26,591 nucleotides of DNA from a virus, in the IMG/VR virus record IMGVR_UViG_3300005515_000050, positions 1 to 26,591 of that record. One strand, given 5' to 3'. Of this stretch, positions 1,517 to 26,376 are shown one piece after another. Made by a program: the position numbers and the translations under genes. The notes under the pieces are model-generated. The model saw only the letters and a list, made by a program, of their open reading frames with translations. It did no database searches and was not told the origin of the DNA. Within the stretch, counting starts at the first letter, position 1, and each line of letters opens with the position of its first letter.

Positions 1517-1755
1517 GCGGTCTGCTCCTTGGATTGCAGCGGCGCGCGTGCGGACTGCAACGACGCCCAGGTGAGGGGGAACGGGCCGCGTTTGGCCCGA
1601 GTGGATGCGGTTTCGACGCTGGTGCCGATGGCTTCGGCGATCTCGCGGCTGGTGAGCAGCTTCCCTTCGACCACGTGAGCGAAGAGCCGGGCACGGGCCA
1701 GGCCCGCGCGTCGGTTGTATTCCCGCTGCTTGCGGGTGCGGGCGACGGCGGTCAT
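1513..1755 (-). CDS. Small basic HTH-like protein
   Basis: An 80-aa basic protein. Residues 1-25 are very basic (ARTRKQREYNRRAGLARARL). Residues about 30-60 read as a helix-turn-helix (KLLTSREIAEAIGTSVETASTRAKRG). It overlaps both neighbours with ATGA junctions, including the methyltransferase stop at 1752-1754, so all three are co-translated. I infer a small DNA-binding regulator; no family is recognised. Confidence 0.65.
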   Translation of the reverse strand: MTAVARTRKQREYNRRAGLARARLFAHVVEGKLLTSREIAEAIGTSVETASTRAKRGPFPLTWASLQSARAPLQSKEQTA

Positions 1756-3767
1756 GCGGCGTCCCTCATCAGGCCCATCACCAGCGCCTTCGCGGTGCGG
1801 TTCGGCACCGCGTTACCGATCTGCTTGGTGATCTGGGTGGCGTTGCCGGCGAAGTCGTAGACCTCGCCCTCGTCGTCAAAGGAAGTCGCCCGCGACAGCT
1901 CCCGCCAATGCAGCATTCGATAATTGATGTCGATGGCCACTTCGTCCGCCGCATCGGCCAGCGGCTGGGCCAGGCCCAACTCGCCCCGGTTCGCACCGGT
2001 GATCGTCGGCAGCGGCAGATCGATGTCGTGGGTCCTGGTGTCGCCCTGGTGCGTCACCGGCAGCGCGAACGGCTGGGCCAAGGCCAGAGACTCGGACGTG
2101 GTGATCGTGGCCAGCGGCTCGCTGATAGGGCGCATGTCGCGGACGCGGCCGGTACCGACGTTGCCGCGCATGACGATGGCCTCGGCCAGGGCGACCTCAT
2201 TGGAGCCGGTCAGCGCCGGCACCGGTGCATCCGGATCCAGCACCCGGCTTGCCGGGTCGCGCCCGTCGCTGTCTCCGTGCCCGGCCCGCATCAGCACGGG
2301 CTCGGCGAGGCCGAATCGGGCCTTGGTGGTCACGGACGGCACCGGGTCGGACACGGATTGCGCGGTGAGGCCGGAGCCATTGCCGTAGTAGGGCGCCAGC
2401 AGCGGCACCGCCAGCGCCTGGTCGCCGCCCTTGGCAGTGGTCACCGTCCGAATGGGGTCGGCCACTGAGCGCGGCACGCCAGGACTGCTGGTGTTCGACG
2501 TCGGGACGATGATCGGCTCGATCAGGTGCGGGCGCGCGCCGTTGCCGCCGGTCGTGATCGTTGGCACCGGCTGGGTGACAGGCCGCGCCGTCCCGCCGCT
2601 CGCGGTAGCCATGACCAGCGGCTCCATCAGCTGCGGTCGAGCATTGCCGGGACGCTCGCTGCCAGCGCCACCGGTGGTGATGGTGGGCAACGGCTGGTCC
2701 AGGTCCCGCGCCGCGCCGCCGCTGCTGGTGGCCAGCACCAGGCCGACGTGGGTGCCGCCGGCGGTCAGGGTAGGCAGCGGCTCGTCAGCGGACCGCGCCG
2801 ACGCCTGCAGGTGCTGGTCGCTTGTGCCGCGCATGTGGATCACCACCGGCTCGGCTTGGATCAAGCCCAGCTCCAGCGCTTCGGCCCGGGTGAAGACCAG
2901 TTTCGGCGTGTCGCCATCCAGCAGCGCCTGGACCGCGTCGATGTAGGGCTGCTGCCAGCGGTACTTTGCGGCGCCGGCCAGGATGCGGCGAAGGGTGTTC
3001 GGGCTCAGCGGCTTTTTCCGGTTGAAGATGCTCTTGCCGGTCATGCTCCAGTCGATGATCTCGCGGGCGCCCCGCCAGCGCGGCCGGGTGCCGAGCAGGT
3101 CGGTACCGCCCACACGGTCGTGGCTGAAGTCCTCCCAGAGCAGGCGCTTGCCGTCGCTGCGTCCAATCAGGAAGAACCGCTGCCGGCTGGTCACGTCGCC
3201 GTAGTTGGCGCAGCACAGCACCTTCCAGTCGACCTTAAATCCCACGGCCTGCAGCGCCGCCACCCATGCGCGGAAGTACTCGCCGCGGCGCGACTTGATG
3301 GGCCGGCCGGTGACCAGGCTGCACGGGCCCCAGTCCATGAATTCCGGCACGTTCTCGACGAGGAGACGGGTGACGCGCAGCTCGGTGCACCAGCGCACAA
3401 CGTGCCACGGGTCCATCCGCTGCTGGTCGTGCACCGGCCGGCCGCCGCGTGCCCGGCTGTGGAAGACGCAGGACGGTGCGGCCGTCAGCAGGTCCAAGCG
3501 ACCCTCCGGCACCAACGTCAGGGGCAGGGCCGATTCCAGGTCGGCGCAGTGGATGCGGTCTGCATGCTCCTTGTGGTTCCTGCGGTTCGTCTCGATTGCG
3601 ACCGGCCAGTGGTTCACGCCGATCAGGCGCACCGGCAGGCCCAGTTCGCGCATGGCACGCGCGGCGCCGTTGGACAGCCCGCCAGCACCGCAGAACAGGT
3701 CGGCAATCAGCATGGGGCGGACCTTGCGGTTCACGCGTATCTCTGGCGAGCGGGATCCGTCAGCCAT
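1752..3767 (-). CDS. DNA (cytosine-5-)-methyltransferase with C-terminal repeat array
   Basis: A 671-aa C5 cytosine methyltransferase, about twice the length of typical family members. Visible motifs: I, DLFCGAGGLS (23-32); IV, APSC with the nucleophile Cys100, where the usual Pro-Cys is Pro-Ser-Cys; VI, ENV (138-140); VIII, SRQRFFLIG (194-202); X, IGNAVPNRTAKAL (650-662). Between VIII and X lie eight repeats of a PLPTITTGG-type motif (residues 328-593). ATG at 3767 is preferred over the ATG at 3836 because GGAG lies 6 nt upstream and it overlaps the previous stop. No restriction endonuclease is adjacent, so it is probably an orphan methylase protecting phage DNA from restriction (inference). 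Confidence 0.92.
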   Translation of the reverse strand: MADGSRSPEIRVNRKVRPMLIADLFCGAGGLSNGAARAMRELGLPVRLIGVNHWPVAIETNRRNHKEHADRIHCADLESALPLTLVPEGRLDLLTAAPSCVFHSRARGGRPVHDQQRMDPWHVVRWCTELRVTRLLVENVPEFMDWGPCSLVTGRPIKSRRGEYFRAWVAALQAVGFKVDWKVLCCANYGDVTSRQRFFLIGRSDGKRLLWEDFSHDRVGGTDLLGTRPRWRGAREIIDWSMTGKSIFNRKKPLSPNTLRRILAGAAKYRWQQPYIDAVQALLDGDTPKLVFTRAEALELGLIQAEPVVIHMRGTSDQHLQASARSADEPLPTLTAGGTHVGLVLATSSGGAARDLDQPLPTITTGGAGSERPGNARPQLMEPLVMATASGGTARPVTQPVPTITTGGNGARPHLIEPIIVPTSNTSSPGVPRSVADPIRTVTTAKGGDQALAVPLLAPYYGNGSGLTAQSVSDPVPSVTTKARFGLAEPVLMRAGHGDSDGRDPASRVLDPDAPVPALTGSNEVALAEAIVMRGNVGTGRVRDMRPISEPLATITTSESLALAQPFALPVTHQGDTRTHDIDLPLPTITGANRGELGLAQPLADAADEVAIDINYRMLHWRELSRATSFDDEGEVYDFAGNATQITKQIGNAVPNRTAKALVMGLMRDAA
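1956..2786 (-). repeat. Eight-copy protein-coding repeat inside the methyltransferase
   Basis: Eight diverged copies of a roughly 37-residue unit are marked by the core [DSTA]xP[LVI]x[TS][ILV]T[TAG]: residues 328, 357, 398, 436, 473, 513, 549 and 583. Copies 2 and 3 are closest (QPLPTITTGG and QPVPTITTGG). The core resembles motif IX of C5 methylases, which normally occurs once near the target-recognition domain. Confidence 0.7.
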
Positions 3768-4080
3768 GGGTTTCTCCAGTGAGGGCGGCGCGCAGCTCAG
3801 CAACCCGCGCGCGCCAGTAGTCGATGGTGTCGTCACTGCTGCTGCGCAGCGTTTCGTGGTGCCCGAGGGCTGTTGCCGCCGCGATCAGGTCGGTCAGGGT
3901 CTGGTGCTGCTCGGCCGGCAGCGGCTGCCCGGCGCGCAGGTCGCCAACCTCGGCCTGCAGCTGCTCGACCAGGTCGTGGGCCTGAGCTAGCCACTGGCGG
4001 TAGGCGTCCTTGGTCGGCTGCCGCATGCGGACCGGTACGCCGACGTCGGCAGCGGGCGGCACCAGCACCAGTCCGTTCAT
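3760..4080 (-). CDS. Hypothetical protein, helical
   Basis: A 106-aa protein with a short beta-like N-terminus (NGLVLVPPAADVGVPV) and two long amphipathic helices (about 25-50 and 60-100), likely coiled-coil. No catalytic motif is seen. It overlaps the methyltransferase start by 8 bp and the preceding small gene by ATGA, so it is co-translated with both. It may be a phage accessory protein; no family is recognised. Confidence 0.6.
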   Translation of the reverse strand: MNGLVLVPPAADVGVPVRMRQPTKDAYRQWLAQAHDLVEQLQAEVGDLRAGQPLPAEQHQTLTDLIAAATALGHHETLRSSSDDTIDYWRARVAELRAALTGETHG

Positions 4081-21497: not shown

Positions 21498-21977
21498 ATG
21501 AGCAGATCAACCAAACGTCGCTCACCTCTCACGGCGAAGCAGAAGCGTTTCGTCCTGGAATACCTGAAGGACCAAAACGGCACGCAGGCCGCAATCCGAA
21601 CGGGGTATAGCGAGAAGACCGCCAAGCAGCAAGGTTCGCGGCTGCTGACCGATCAGAGGGTGCTAGCTGCTCTGCATGCTGGACAGAAGAAGGTGGCCAG
21701 GAAGGCAGAGGTGACCGTTGAAAGCCTAATGGCCGAGCTGGAGCAGGCTCGAAGGCTGGCGGTCAAGGAAAAACAGGTCAGCGCCGCGGTCACCGCGACT
21801 ATGGGCAAGGGGAAGCTGGCCGGCCTGCTGATCGAAAAGCGCCAGCACTCCGGTGCGGTTGGCACCTACAACCTGAAAGACCTATCGGACAATGACCTCG
21901 ACCGCCTTGAACAGATCCTCGGTCCGCTTGCCGACGTTGGCGGAGATCCGGGCGGAGCGGGCGAGGAGGGCAACTGA
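21498..21977 (+). CDS. Terminase small subunit
   Basis: A 159-aa protein of the Terminase_2 family: SPLTAKQKRFVLEYLKDQNG, then TQAAIRTGYSEKTAKQQGSR, the usual HTH that recognises the packaging site. The C-terminal part carries oligomerisation helices and an acidic tail. No strong ribosome site precedes ATG 21498. The large subunit starts inside its 3' end. Confidence 0.9.
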   Translation: MSRSTKRRSPLTAKQKRFVLEYLKDQNGTQAAIRTGYSEKTAKQQGSRLLTDQRVLAALHAGQKKVARKAEVTVESLMAELEQARRLAVKEKQVSAAVTATMGKGKLAGLLIEKRQHSGAVGTYNLKDLSDNDLDRLEQILGPLADVGGDPGGAGEEGN

Positions 21978-23460
21978 GCGCGAGCGGCAGCGCATCGCCG
22001 AGAACGTAGAGGGCATCCGGGCAAGATCACACACGCTGGAGGGCTTCATCCTCGAGCACTGGCACATCTTGGAGCCGGCCAGGCCGCTGAAGTTTGGCTG
22101 GGCGCTGCGGGCGATGTGCAGGCACCTGGAGGCGGTCACCGAGGGCCATATCCAGTTCCTGTTAATGACCGTGCCGCCCGGCATGATGAAGTCGCTGCTG
22201 CTGGTGTTCTGGACAGCGTGGGAATGGGGCCCGGTTGGTCGCCCGGACCTGCAGATGCTGGCCACTTCGTACAGCCAGCCCAACGTGTTGCGCGACAACT
22301 TGAAGCTACGGCGCCTCATCGAGAGCGACCAGTACCAGGCCGCGTGGCCGATGAAGCTTCGCGGCGACCAGAACGCGAAGGGGAAGTTCGAGAACACCGG
22401 CAACGGCTTCAGTGAGGCCAGGCCTTTCAGCTCCATGACCGGTGGCCGCGGCGACCGGGTGAAGGTGGACGACCCGCATTCGACCGAGACCGCCGAGAGC
22501 GACGCCGAGCGCAAGACCGCCGTCCGGATCTTCCGTGAGGGCATTACCGACCGACTGAACGACATCACCTCCTCGGCGATGGTGATCATCATGCAGCGCC
22601 TGCACCAGCAGGACGTTGCAGCGGTGGCGCTGGAGCTGGACCTGGGCTTCGTCCACCTGAATCTGCCAATGGAGTTCGAAGCAGAGCGGGTCGACAAGGA
22701 CGGCAAGAAAACCGGCGGCCCGTGCCGTACCTACGTGAACGGGGAGCTTTTCTTCGAGGACCCGCGCACCGAAGACGGCCAGCTCCTGTTTCCAGAGCGC
22801 TTCCCGCGCGCCGAGGTCGACAGGCTCAAGCGTGCGAAAGGCAGCTACGCATACGCCGGGCAGTACCAACAGCGGCCCACCCCTCGCGACGGCGGGCGGT
22901 TTAAGCGGGAATGGTTCGAGGTGGTGGAGGCAGCGCCGGCGATCGCGTCGGCCCGAAAGGTTCGGCGGTGGGACTTCGCTGCCACCGACCCGAAGGAGAA
23001 AACCAGTAGCGATCCGGACTACACCGTCGGACTGCTCTTGGGCGAATTCGCCGGGACGTACTACGTGCTCGACGTCGTGCGCGACCAGGTGTCGCCCGCC
23101 GGCGTGGAGCGGATGCTGAAGAACACCGCAGTGCAGGACGGCAAGGGCATCAAGGTTCGTATCCCGCAGGATCCTGGCGCCGCCGGCAAGAGCAACGCCG
23201 CGCACCAGGTGAAGCTGCTGGCGGGCTGGGACGTCAAGGCGGTGCTGGAATCCGGATCCAAGGAGGTCCGGGCAACCCCGGTGGAGGCTCAAGCCGAAGC
23301 CGGAAACATCAAGCTGGTGAAGGGGCCGTGGGTCGCAGCGTTCTTGGACGAGATCGCCGAGTTCCCGAACGCGAAACATGATGATCAGGTGGACGGGCTC
23401 TCGGGCGCTTTCGCCGAGCTCGTCACCGGCAGCACCTACAACCTGGGGAACGCTCTCTGA
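21892..23460 (+). CDS. Terminase large subunit
   Basis: A 522-aa packaging motor. Deviant Walker A VPPGMMKSLL (95-104), a Walker-B-like VKVDDPH (190-196), and nuclease acidic residues at Asp361 (RRWDFAATD), DPDYTVG (374-380) and HDDQVDG (496-502). It overlaps the small subunit by 86 bp, which is long but keeps the basic N-terminus; no better start is seen. It cuts and pumps DNA into proheads docked on the portal encoded next, whose ATG shares a base with its stop. Confidence 0.93.
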   Translation: MTSTALNRSSVRLPTLAEIRAERARRATERERQRIAENVEGIRARSHTLEGFILEHWHILEPARPLKFGWALRAMCRHLEAVTEGHIQFLLMTVPPGMMKSLLLVFWTAWEWGPVGRPDLQMLATSYSQPNVLRDNLKLRRLIESDQYQAAWPMKLRGDQNAKGKFENTGNGFSEARPFSSMTGGRGDRVKVDDPHSTETAESDAERKTAVRIFREGITDRLNDITSSAMVIIMQRLHQQDVAAVALELDLGFVHLNLPMEFEAERVDKDGKKTGGPCRTYVNGELFFEDPRTEDGQLLFPERFPRAEVDRLKRAKGSYAYAGQYQQRPTPRDGGRFKREWFEVVEAAPAIASARKVRRWDFAATDPKEKTSSDPDYTVGLLLGEFAGTYYVLDVVRDQVSPAGVERMLKNTAVQDGKGIKVRIPQDPGAAGKSNAAHQVKLLAGWDVKAVLESGSKEVRATPVEAQAEAGNIKLVKGPWVAAFLDEIAEFPNAKHDDQVDGLSGAFAELVTGSTYNLGNAL

Positions 23461-25250
23461 TGGGCAAGCTCGCACAAATCAAGGACGGGCTGGTCAACCT
23501 GGTTGCCAACCTGGGCACGCCTCGCGACAAGGCGGCTTCCTCGTTCTACGGCCTGCCGCTCCTGACGGACGCAGACGCAAACAATGCCTACCGCGGCACC
23601 TGGCTGGCGCGGAAGGTCATCGATATCCCTGCAATGGACAGCTGCCGCAAGTGGCGCGGCTGGAGCGCTGACCAGGCCGAGATCTCCGCCATTGAGGCGG
23701 AGGAGAAGCGCCTCGGCCTCCAGCAGAAGATGCTGGAAGCACTCACGCGCGCGCGTCTCTCCGGCGGCGCTGCTCTCTACATCGGTACGGGGCAGTCCGA
23801 CCCGCTGAAGCCCCTGAGCCCGGAATCGGTGGGGAAGGGCGGCATCAAGCACATCAACGTACTGTCCAAGCGGGTGCTGCAGGCGGGGGAGCTAGACCGT
23901 GACCCGGAATCACCAGGCTACGGCCGGCCCGCGTACTACAACCTCAGCAGTGGCACTGCCGGGCAGCTGCGGATCCATCCAAGCCGGCTTGTGATCCTGC
24001 AAGGCGCCACGAAGCCGGATCCGGAACTGGACACTGGTGACGGATGGGGCGATTCGGTGCTGCTGGCGATCAGCAAGGCCATCAAGGATGCCGACAGCAC
24101 GGCCGGCAACATCGCTTCACTGGTGTTCGAAGCGAAGGTCGACGTGATCAAGATCCCGAACTTCATGTCGATGCTGTCCGACCCGGCCTACGAAGCGCAG
24201 ATGCTGAGCAGGATGCAGCTGGCCATGATGGCCAAGGGCATCAACGGTGCGCTGCTGCTGGATGCCGAGGAGTCATACGAGCAGAAGCAGGCGCAGTTCG
24301 GCGGCCTCACCGACCTGCTGATGTCCTTCATGCAGCTGACCGCAGGCGCCTCGGATATCCCGATGACCCGGCTCCTCGGCCAGTCGCCGGGCGGCATGAA
24401 CGCAAGTGGCGAAAGCGACCTGCGCAATTACTACGATCGGATCAGCTCCAGCCAGGAACTGGTGCTGGCACCGGCGCTGCAGGTGCTCGACGAGTGTCTG
24501 ATCCGTTCGGCGCTGGGCAGCCGGCCGAAGGAGGTGTTCTACAACTGGCGCAGCCTGTGGCAGACCACTGACACCGAGCGCGCGACCATCGGCAAGACCA
24601 CGGCTGACACGATCAAGACCATCGTCGATACCCGCCTCATTCCCGACGACGTAATGTCGGTGGTGGCGGTCAACATGCTAACCGAGGCCGGCGTCGCGCC
24701 GGGCCTTGAAGCAGAGATGCTGGAGTACGGCCAGGCCAACCCGGATGGCGAGAGCGATGAGATCGGCGAGGAGGAGAGCGCGGCGGCGGCAACGGCAGCC
24801 GTGGTCGACGCCCAGCCCCGGTCCCTGTACGTAAGCCGTAAGGTGATCAACACGGACGAAATCGAGGCGTGGGCGCGCGGTCAGGGAATCACGGATCTGG
24901 TCGACGACCTGCACGTGACCGTCGCCTATTCGCGCCAGGCCTTCGACTGGATCAAGGCAGGCAACGCGAGCGACTGGGGCAACGACGGGAAGGACCGGGT
25001 GGTGATACCGGAAGGTGGCCCGCGCGCCGTCGAGCCGCTGGGCGGCATGTCTGCGGTGATCCTGTTCGCTTCGTCAGCGCTGTCGTGGCGCCACGAAACC
25101 ATCATCCGCGCCGGCGGCTCGCACGACTACCCGGACTTCACCCCGCATATCAGCCTCACCAAGGCTCCCGTCGACCTGCTAAAGGTCGAGCCGTACCGCG
25201 GCCGCATCGTGCTGGGCCCGGAAATCTTCGAAGAGATCCGAGAGGACTGA
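23460..25250 (+). CDS. DUF1073-type portal protein fused to an Acb1-like 2H phosphoesterase (anti-CBASS)
   Basis: 596 aa in two parts. Residues 1-425 are the portal (RKVIDIPAMDSCRKWRGWSA; LGQSPGGMNASGESDLRNYY; NWRSLWQTT). After an acidic/Ala linker (426-450), residues 455-596 form a 2H-phosphoesterase-like domain with two H-x-[ST] motifs: His485-Val-Thr487 (DDLHVTVAYS) and His563-Ile-Ser565 (TPHISLTK). Acb1 enzymes of this type degrade cyclic nucleotides that trigger the CBASS abortive defence (established for T4-type Acb1). The fusion would place anti-defence activity on the portal or on a cleaved product; that is inference. The frame is uninterrupted and starts on the terminase stop. Confidence 0.88.
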   Translation: MGKLAQIKDGLVNLVANLGTPRDKAASSFYGLPLLTDADANNAYRGTWLARKVIDIPAMDSCRKWRGWSADQAEISAIEAEEKRLGLQQKMLEALTRARLSGGAALYIGTGQSDPLKPLSPESVGKGGIKHINVLSKRVLQAGELDRDPESPGYGRPAYYNLSSGTAGQLRIHPSRLVILQGATKPDPELDTGDGWGDSVLLAISKAIKDADSTAGNIASLVFEAKVDVIKIPNFMSMLSDPAYEAQMLSRMQLAMMAKGINGALLLDAEESYEQKQAQFGGLTDLLMSFMQLTAGASDIPMTRLLGQSPGGMNASGESDLRNYYDRISSSQELVLAPALQVLDECLIRSALGSRPKEVFYNWRSLWQTTDTERATIGKTTADTIKTIVDTRLIPDDVMSVVAVNMLTEAGVAPGLEAEMLEYGQANPDGESDEIGEEESAAAATAAVVDAQPRSLYVSRKVINTDEIEAWARGQGITDLVDDLHVTVAYSRQAFDWIKAGNASDWGNDGKDRVVIPEGGPRAVEPLGGMSAVILFASSALSWRHETIIRAGGSHDYPDFTPHISLTKAPVDLLKVEPYRGRIVLGPEIFEEIRED

Positions 25251-25254
25251 CCCC

Positions 25255-26376
25255 ATGTACCTAATCGATCACGTCTCGGTGTCGGCGCCCCGCCGCACCG
25301 TGGACGGCTACCTTGTGGCCGATGCATACGTGGCGCGGACCGGCATCCAGACCTACCTGGGAGAGGAGCTGGGGCGACCTGACCTGTTGAACGTGCGGGT
25401 CTATCGGCCACCGGAGGAGGTGTTCTCCGATGCAACGCTGCGCAGCTTCGCGCACCGGCCGATGACCAACGACCACCCGCCGGAACAGGTGAACGCGCAG
25501 AACTGGAAAAAGTACGCCGTTGGCCAGACCGGCGACGAGGTCGTGCACGACAAGAACCGAGTGCGTGTTCCGCTGGTCCTGATGGATCAAGACGCGATCG
25601 CGGACTACGAGGCCGGCAAGCGCGAGCTGTCGCAGGGGTATTCCTCGGAGATCGATTGGACCGATGGGGTGACGCCGGAAGGTGAACCCTACGACGCGGT
25701 CCAGCGAAACATTCGCAACAACCATCTGGCCCTTGTCCAGCGCGGCCGGGCCGGCGCTCAGTTTCGCATCGGGGATGGGCGCACCCCCGGTGCTCCGGAT
25801 CCAAGCGCCCATCCACAACCCCAGGAGAACCACATGAGCGACAAGACCATCTTGGTCGATGGGCTGTCCGTCGTCACCAACGACGCCGGCGCCCAGGCCA
25901 TCAGCAAGCTGCAGCAGCAGCTGAAGGATGCGCAGACCGCCGCAGGCACCGCTGATGCCAATCACCAGGCGGTGATCGCGGCCAAGGACGCCGACATCGC
26001 CAAGCGCGACGCGGAAATCGATTCGCTGAAGGGCCAGGTCCTCAGCGATGCAGCGCTGGACTTGCGCGTGCAGGCCCGCGGCGACCTGATCGGCAAGGCC
26101 AAGGCCATCCATGACACCGACTACACCGGCAAGAGCGATGCGGAAGTCCGCAAGGCGGCCGTCGTCGGCAAGCTCGGCGATGCCGCGGTGGCGGGCAAGC
26201 CGGAGGCCTACATCGAAGCGCGCTTCGACATCCTGGCCGACGGCGCAAAGCCCCGCGATCCGGTCGTTGTCGCCCTCGGCGACCGGGCCATCCATCGCCA
26301 GCCCGTCCAGGACAACGGCTACGCCGCGTCCGTAGCGGGTCTGGACTACCGCACCGCTGGCCAGAAGGAGAACTAA
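25255..26376 (+). CDS. DUF2213-type prohead protease with C-terminal scaffold
   Basis: A 373-aa protein. Residues 1-175 are the DUF2213 protease-like domain: RPMTNDHPPE with His74, and KRELSQGYSSEIDW with Ser126/Ser130, then NHLALVQRGRAG, the prohead-protease pattern. Residues 194-373 are a coiled-coil-rich scaffold (LQQQLKDAQTAAGTADANHQ; AVIAAKDADIAKRDAEIDSL). A Pro-rich linker joins them. The ATG is 5 bp after the portal stop with GAGAGGA upstream. It processes and shapes the capsid during assembly. Confidence 0.85.
   Translation: MYLIDHVSVSAPRRTVDGYLVADAYVARTGIQTYLGEELGRPDLLNVRVYRPPEEVFSDATLRSFAHRPMTNDHPPEQVNAQNWKKYAVGQTGDEVVHDKNRVRVPLVLMDQDAIADYEAGKRELSQGYSSEIDWTDGVTPEGEPYDAVQRNIRNNHLALVQRGRAGAQFRIGDGRTPGAPDPSAHPQPQENHMSDKTILVDGLSVVTNDAGAQAISKLQQQLKDAQTAAGTADANHQAVIAAKDADIAKRDAEIDSLKGQVLSDAALDLRVQARGDLIGKAKAIHDTDYTGKSDAEVRKAAVVGKLGDAAVAGKPEAYIEARFDILADGAKPRDPVVVALGDRAIHRQPVQDNGYAASVAGLDYRTAGQKEN
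25834..26376 (+). CDS. Internal in-frame scaffold protein start
   Basis: An in-frame ATG (residue 194 of the protease-scaffold) has AGGAG 7 nt upstream, a better site than that of the full gene, and begins MSDKTILVDG at the domain boundary. The product would be a 180-aa free scaffold, as lambda Nu3 is made inside gene C. Confidence 0.6.
   Translation: MSDKTILVDGLSVVTNDAGAQAISKLQQQLKDAQTAAGTADANHQAVIAAKDADIAKRDAEIDSLKGQVLSDAALDLRVQARGDLIGKAKAIHDTDYTGKSDAEVRKAAVVGKLGDAAVAGKPEAYIEARFDILADGAKPRDPVVVALGDRAIHRQPVQDNGYAASVAGLDYRTAGQKEN

Follow-up and report, generated by a model that had tools for sequence, protein, structure and literature searches.

A phage portal protein with a removable C-terminal domain of the Acb1 phosphodiesterase family

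The window, that is, the whole stretch of 26,591 nucleotides of virus DNA analyzed here, encodes a portal protein that ends in a second, enzyme-like domain. Profile matches, predicted fold, and conservation together make it well supported that this domain is a 2H phosphoesterase of the Acb1 family with its catalytic residues intact. Acb1 destroys the signal molecules of CBASS, a form of bacterial immunity. The domain is a removable module, whether by loss or by recombination. On balance, it probably serves as an optional, portal-tethered Acb1-type phosphodiesterase acting on CBASS signals in the infected cell during late expression. If it is active, an immune-evasion enzyme is tied to an essential structural gene that is expressed as CBASS fires.

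Architecture, predicted fold, and active site

The 596-aa open reading frame spans exactly positions 23460 to 25250 on the plus strand. In Pfam, it matches the Phage_portal_3/DUF1073 profile PF06381 at residues 40 to 386 (E value 4.5e-109; 364.9 bits against a curated cutoff of 33.8) and the Acb1 profile PF23474 at residues 455 to 596 (E value 3.6e-29; 101.8 bits against a cutoff of 27), and since both scores far exceed the curated cutoffs, the matches are not due to chance. The arrangement given in the preliminary description, a portal followed after an acidic linker by a C-terminal enzyme domain, was borne out. Every one of the 56 sequences in alignment A3 also matches PF23474. PHROG 146 (portal) covers residues 4 to 593 of the window protein, so the two-part architecture is already contained within a database family.

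The portal core (residues 1 to 426; 23460 to 24737, plus strand) is also matched by the NCBIfam profile TIGR01555 (E value 1.2e-85), and its AlphaFold2 model aligned to the Pam3 portal 8HDS_A with a Z score of 30.4 over 413 residues. By analogy with the homologues of Pam3 and E217, the window portal would form a dodecameric ring at the capsid vertex. The acidic linker (residues 427 to 449; 24738 to 24806, plus strand) has low conservation (column conservation of 0.35 versus 0.65 to 0.70 on both flanks) and low pLDDT, with values below 50 and hence predicted disorder at residues 432 to 450; among relatives it is 15 to 86 residues long, consists of 24% D/E, and has no common sequence. It is followed by the junction motif DAQPR (residues 450 to 454; 24807 to 24821, plus strand), the beginning of a conserved pattern DAxP[RK]xLY, and by the Acb1 domain (residues 455 to 596; 24822 to 25247, plus strand).

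The C-terminal part alone retrieved the Pam3 portal 8HDS (E value 7e-32) and the FBB1 Acb1 structure 7T26 (E value 3e-7) in a phmmer search against the PDB. A structure prediction for comparison with Acb1 had been suggested at the outset, and the AlphaFold2 model of the domain, built with 56 relatives, reached a mean pLDDT of 91.2 and adopted a predicted 2H phosphoesterase fold nearest to solved Acb1. The top Foldseek matches were FBB1 Acb1 7T26/7T27 (E value 9.1e-8, TM scores 0.71/0.77), followed by a Burkholderia phage phosphodiesterase and Escherichia coli LigT. With the whole-protein model, VIA-align placed 7T26 on residues 454 to 594 with a Z score of 15.3 and a root mean square deviation of 1.9 Å over 127 residues.

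Two H-x-[ST] motifs had been reported at residues 485 to 487 and 563 to 565, and both are found there. Motif 1, H485-V-T487 (24912 to 24920, plus strand), aligned to FBB1 H44/T46, and motif 2, H563-I-S565 (25146 to 25154, plus strand), to T4 H113/T115, which are H114/T116 in FBB1. In the alignment with FBB1 and KVP40 Acb1, H485, T487, H563, and S565 occupy the positions of the catalytic tetrad (T4 H44, T46, H113, and T115), Y457 that of T4 Y12, and Y557 that of T4 F107; according to Hobbs et al. (PMC9117128), the T4-numbered residues compared here make up the tetrad of Acb1 and contact the bases. E591 aligned with T4 E141 and P517 stands at the position of T4 W74, the alignment being uncertain near both, and the window protein stops before the position of T4 W147 in the C-terminal lid. 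Of the four aromatic positions at which T4 Acb1 stacks its ligand, W74 and W147 are thus unmatched. These stacking and lid residues concern specificity, not family membership. Judged from these residues, catalysis looks intact, and the substrate range or preference may differ from that of T4 Acb1, since the W147 lid position is missing and W74 is not conserved.

The portal gene lies downstream of terminase genes, next to that for the large subunit (21892 to 23460, plus strand; PF17289, E value 1.9e-14; PHROG 38, E value 4.1e-73), and upstream of a gene for a DUF2213 head maturation protease/scaffold protein (25255 to 26376, plus strand; PF09979, E value 5.1e-54; PHROG 530, E value 4.4e-108). 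The latter, a head maturation protease according to PHROGs, agrees with the prohead protease that had been placed next door, and a DUF2213 gene is also located downstream of the portal-Acb1 genes in Pam3, Ssp-JY40, and psageB2. Among close relatives, the gene at this place (25255 to 26376 in the window) swaps between at least two versions independently of the presence of Acb1, with MEIFDSLALDAS... in L007 and L017 and the window-like type in L022. The remaining window is that of a temperate phage, with an S24/CI-like repressor, a CII-like regulator, RecE/RecT, DnaB, endolysin, and Rz, and relatives of it were found in Stenotrophomonas genomes. Near the RecE- and RecT-like genes, positions 1755 to 3836 of the minus strand encode a protein of 694 aa whose C-5 cytosine methylase domain (PF00145) is matched in two stretches. 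A PADLOC search gave no match.

Conservation, selection, and repeated absence of the domain

Relatives were gathered in IMG/VR searches that took the whole portal as well as the domain alone as query. Of 153 different portals long enough to be useful, 134 have the Acb1 domain; the ratio is biased by this mix of full-length and domain queries. Within these 134 fusions, the position of H485 holds His in 133, that of T487 Thr in all, that of H563 His in all, and position 565 either Ser or Thr in all, with Ser replacing Thr in 65; the equivalent of the stacking tyrosine T4 Y12 is kept in 133 of 133. The catalytic residues belong to the best-conserved positions of the portal fusions, and together with the Pfam profile and the predicted fold, this conservation upholds the 2H/Acb1-type identity proposed in the preliminary description. 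The sole fusion with a changed catalytic histidine, IMGVR_UViG_3300048856_000015, has Arg at the position of H485 and is a candidate for a natural inactive Acb1 copy. In the Stenotrophomonas group, pairwise dN/dS (NG86; pairs not independent) was 0.134 in the portal core and 0.144 in the Acb1 domain, but 0.55 in the linker. Purifying selection on the Acb1 domain is about equal to the portal's own, and the contrast with the linker is large.

A 2H enzyme could instead act on another substrate, e.g., on 2′,3′-cyclic phosphate ends left on RNA by an attack of host RNases, or on other defense nucleotides, linear or cyclic. The diversity of 2H enzymes, weak matches of some fusions to LigT and 2′-5′ RNA ligase profiles, and the unmatched T4 W74 and W147 positions point in this direction, and Iyer et al. 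weighed an RNase role. We regard such a substrate as unlikely; the Acb1 profile is the clear winner in Pfam, structural comparison puts FBB1 Acb1 first and LigT well behind (by E value, TM score, Z score, and root mean square deviation), and there is little or no variation at the Y12 and HxT/HxT positions. Moreover, 3′3′-cGAMP and cAAA were cleaved by each of the nine additional Acb1 homologues that Hobbs et al. (PMC9117128) assayed.

Five portals, L017 to L020 and L032, have cores 83 to 86% identical to that of the window and end at 452 to 453 aa, right after the acidic linker, without Acb1. In the four phage records L017 to L020, the gene following the Acb1-less portal is the same as in the Acb1-bearing L007. 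No Acb1 was found elsewhere in these four records of 44 to 53 kb, nor was a relocated copy found in the whole Stenotrophomonas genome G022, which holds L032; more distant Acb1-less records had none elsewhere either. The idea that the Acb1-less phages hold Acb1 in split form or at another place was rejected, as none was found in twelve virus records of 4 to 53 kb, some of them fragments, or in G022.

On a portal-core tree of 92 ingroup rows (IQ-TREE quick search), the domain's presence and absence changed 8 times, with at least 6 changes forced by well-supported branches; the count is blind to gain versus loss. Loss is favored over gain because Acb1-bearing rows fill all deep ingroup branches, and recombination in the portal gene could also be the source of the pattern. 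The repeated clean absence in close relatives therefore indicates a dispensable accessory enzyme rather than a structural part, as the preliminary description had implied. It could still be supposed that the domain has become a structural or assembly component of the portal, kept for its fold rather than for catalysis, as it lies physically within a structural protein and PHROG 146 takes the whole length as portal. This is hardly credible in view of the highly identical portals lacking the domain, the repeated changes on the tree, and the conservation of the catalytic residues.

Place and time of action

We infer that the portal-borne domain has anti-CBASS activity; its substrate, its target, and the time and place of its action would be as follows. 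The Stenotrophomonas phage portal would carry an intact-looking Acb1-type 2H phosphodiesterase on a flexible acidic C-terminal tether, as an optional module with no share in portal mechanics. Within the infected cell, the enzyme would cut CBASS cyclic di- or trinucleotides, or signals closely akin to them. In the simplest account, it would do so during late gene expression, as portal subunits build up alongside the head proteins that can trigger CBASS, being borne on freshly synthesized portal subunits while the trigger is produced. Fusion to a late structural gene would thereby place the antidote when and where the trigger appears, and copies borne in the capsid would be a by-product or a second delivery route.

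The activity of T4 Acb1 from about 15 min of infection matches the late onset of CBASS (Hobbs 2022, PMC9117128), and there is a report of a CBASS sensor interacting with a prohead protease (review, PMC12409349); in the window, the prohead protease gene directly follows the portal-Acb1 gene. SMODS cyclase genes, which are typical of CBASS and whose products make its signals, were present in 10 of 91 Stenotrophomonas species genomes, and one of these SMODS-bearing genomes, G029, also has a portal-Acb1 prophage. The overlap of portal-Acb1 with SMODS across Stenotrophomonas (1/4 versus 10/91) is too sparse for an association, and the SMODS cyclases show that the target can exist in Stenotrophomonas, no more.

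Portal C termini make the barrel that faces the capsid interior, and uncleaved copies should therefore sit in the DNA-filled head. A C-terminal portal barrel has been described for Pa193. In a different reading, the domain sits on the barrel within the capsid and is released from it, perhaps by the DUF2213 head protease cutting at the DAxPR junction; ejected with the DNA, it would clear immune nucleotides from the first minutes of infection. Were the portal a delivery vehicle, the incoming phage DNA would be covered at once against cyclic-nucleotide immunity. Iyer et al. (PMC5512222 and PMC9503650) proposed virion delivery for portal-2H fusions, and the window protein, with an effector domain fused to a head protein, the portal, has the composition of head-packaged polyvalent effector proteins. 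In one fusion, L174, Acb1 is followed by a third domain, the nuclease-like PBECR3, which recalls such head-packaged polyvalent proteins.

The junction pattern also bears on virion delivery. DAxP[RK]xLY was present in 127 of the 134 portal fusions and absent from all Acb1-less portals and from five aligned free-standing Acb1 relatives; it may be a processing site or a mere fold cap. The linkers, however, vary in sequence and length and have no common cleavage motif within them. Release by the neighboring protease, one of the options in the preliminary description, finds no support here; the linker is not conserved, although the motif at the edge of the domain is. Delivery would be limited to at most 12 copies per virion, and with CBASS activated late (PMC9117128), an early supply is not obviously needed. 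Taken together, delivery in the virion is the main rival to late action in the cell but appears rather doubtful, and the specific form of it in which the DUF2213 protease frees Acb1 at DAxPR in the procapsid and up to 12 copies packaged at the portal barrel are ejected with the genome seems improbable.

The preliminary description held that every virion would carry an active enzyme, and the virion of Pam3, the only one of this kind known to be solved, does not support this. The Pam3 portal sequence has 621 aa with an Acb1-type domain at residues 461 to 611, but the portal chain deposited from the virion, 8HDS, comprises 442 of 621 residues and matches the window model structurally no further than chain residue 438; 8HDS was not among the Foldseek matches to the domain model. 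The Pam3 virion model is thus apparently without the Acb1 domain, and the domain is either flexible or removed in the virion. The gap is compatible with cleavage, but plain flexibility explains the missing density equally well, so that it speaks neither for nor against carriage of the effector into a new host. The related portal gp19 of E217 was built for residues 97 to 528 of 765 only (PMC10329688).

An internal translation start yielding free Acb1 was rejected as a general mechanism, as only 15 of 134 fusions have an ATG in frame in the stretch from residue 421 to the domain, 4 of them with a Shine-Dalgarno-like 4-mer. M420 is present in 51 of 134 and was likewise dismissed as a general start, because Acb1-less portals of the same group also have it.

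We favor late action in the infected cell, and natural portal pairs with and without the domain, some of them more than 80% identical, leave the working of portal-borne effectors directly open to test.

Comparison with known systems

Portal-fused Acb1 is easily missed, because annotation of the genes mostly stops at portal, head, or hypothetical protein. Free copies are also misnamed. Edwardsiella phage vB_EpM_ZHS encodes a free 199-aa Acb1 (2116 to 2715 of record L028; PF23474, E value 2.8e-22) between the terminase and portal genes, annotated as a prohead protease, and an Acb1-size protein of Roseobacter phage DSS3P8 has the same misleading name. The Acb1-prohead protease fusion that these annotations imply was rejected, since the proteins are free-standing and 150 to 199 aa long. 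A triple fusion was found in L174 (1848 to 4223, plus strand), a 792-aa portal with Acb1 and the PBECR3 nuclease-like domain (PF18812, E value 6.9e-12, residues 688 to 791), so the portal tail can gather further effector-like domains.

With the Acb1 (anti-CBASS protein 1) of T4 and FBB1 (PF23474; 7T26/7T27), the window domain shares the predicted 2H fold, the Y12 equivalent, and an acidic residue near T4 E141. The tetrad is of the HxT/HxT type in T4 and FBB1 and HxT/HxS in the window, and the window copy differs in being fused to the portal C terminus and in lacking the W147 lid position and a W74 equivalent. The Pam3 portal (PDB 8HDS) has the same two-domain architecture, is about 45% identical over the full length, and keeps both H-x-[ST] motifs; a MuF gene follows the portal gene in Pam3 but not in the window.

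Portal-2H and MuF-2H fusions, with a proposed role against nucleotide signals, were described by Iyer, Aravind, and colleagues in 2017 (PMC5512222) and 2022 (PMC9503650). The architecture class is the same, and so is the functional proposal, the destruction of counter-invader nucleotide signals; both the architecture and the injection idea are thus already published. In the literature searched, no experimental study and no activity data for a portal-borne Acb1 were found, which agrees with the earlier remark that delivery by a portal appears little studied. The proposal of Iyer, Aravind, and colleagues, in the passages considered here, is based on domain architecture and context, whereas here the 2H domain was placed in the Acb1 family, and catalytic conservation, selection, and repeated natural loss were measured. 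Further additions are a junction motif specific to the fusions, the lack of the domain in the Pam3 model, and the triple fusion. New as well are the close relatives that lack exactly the Acb1 domain and have none elsewhere in their records, with at least six changes on the portal tree.
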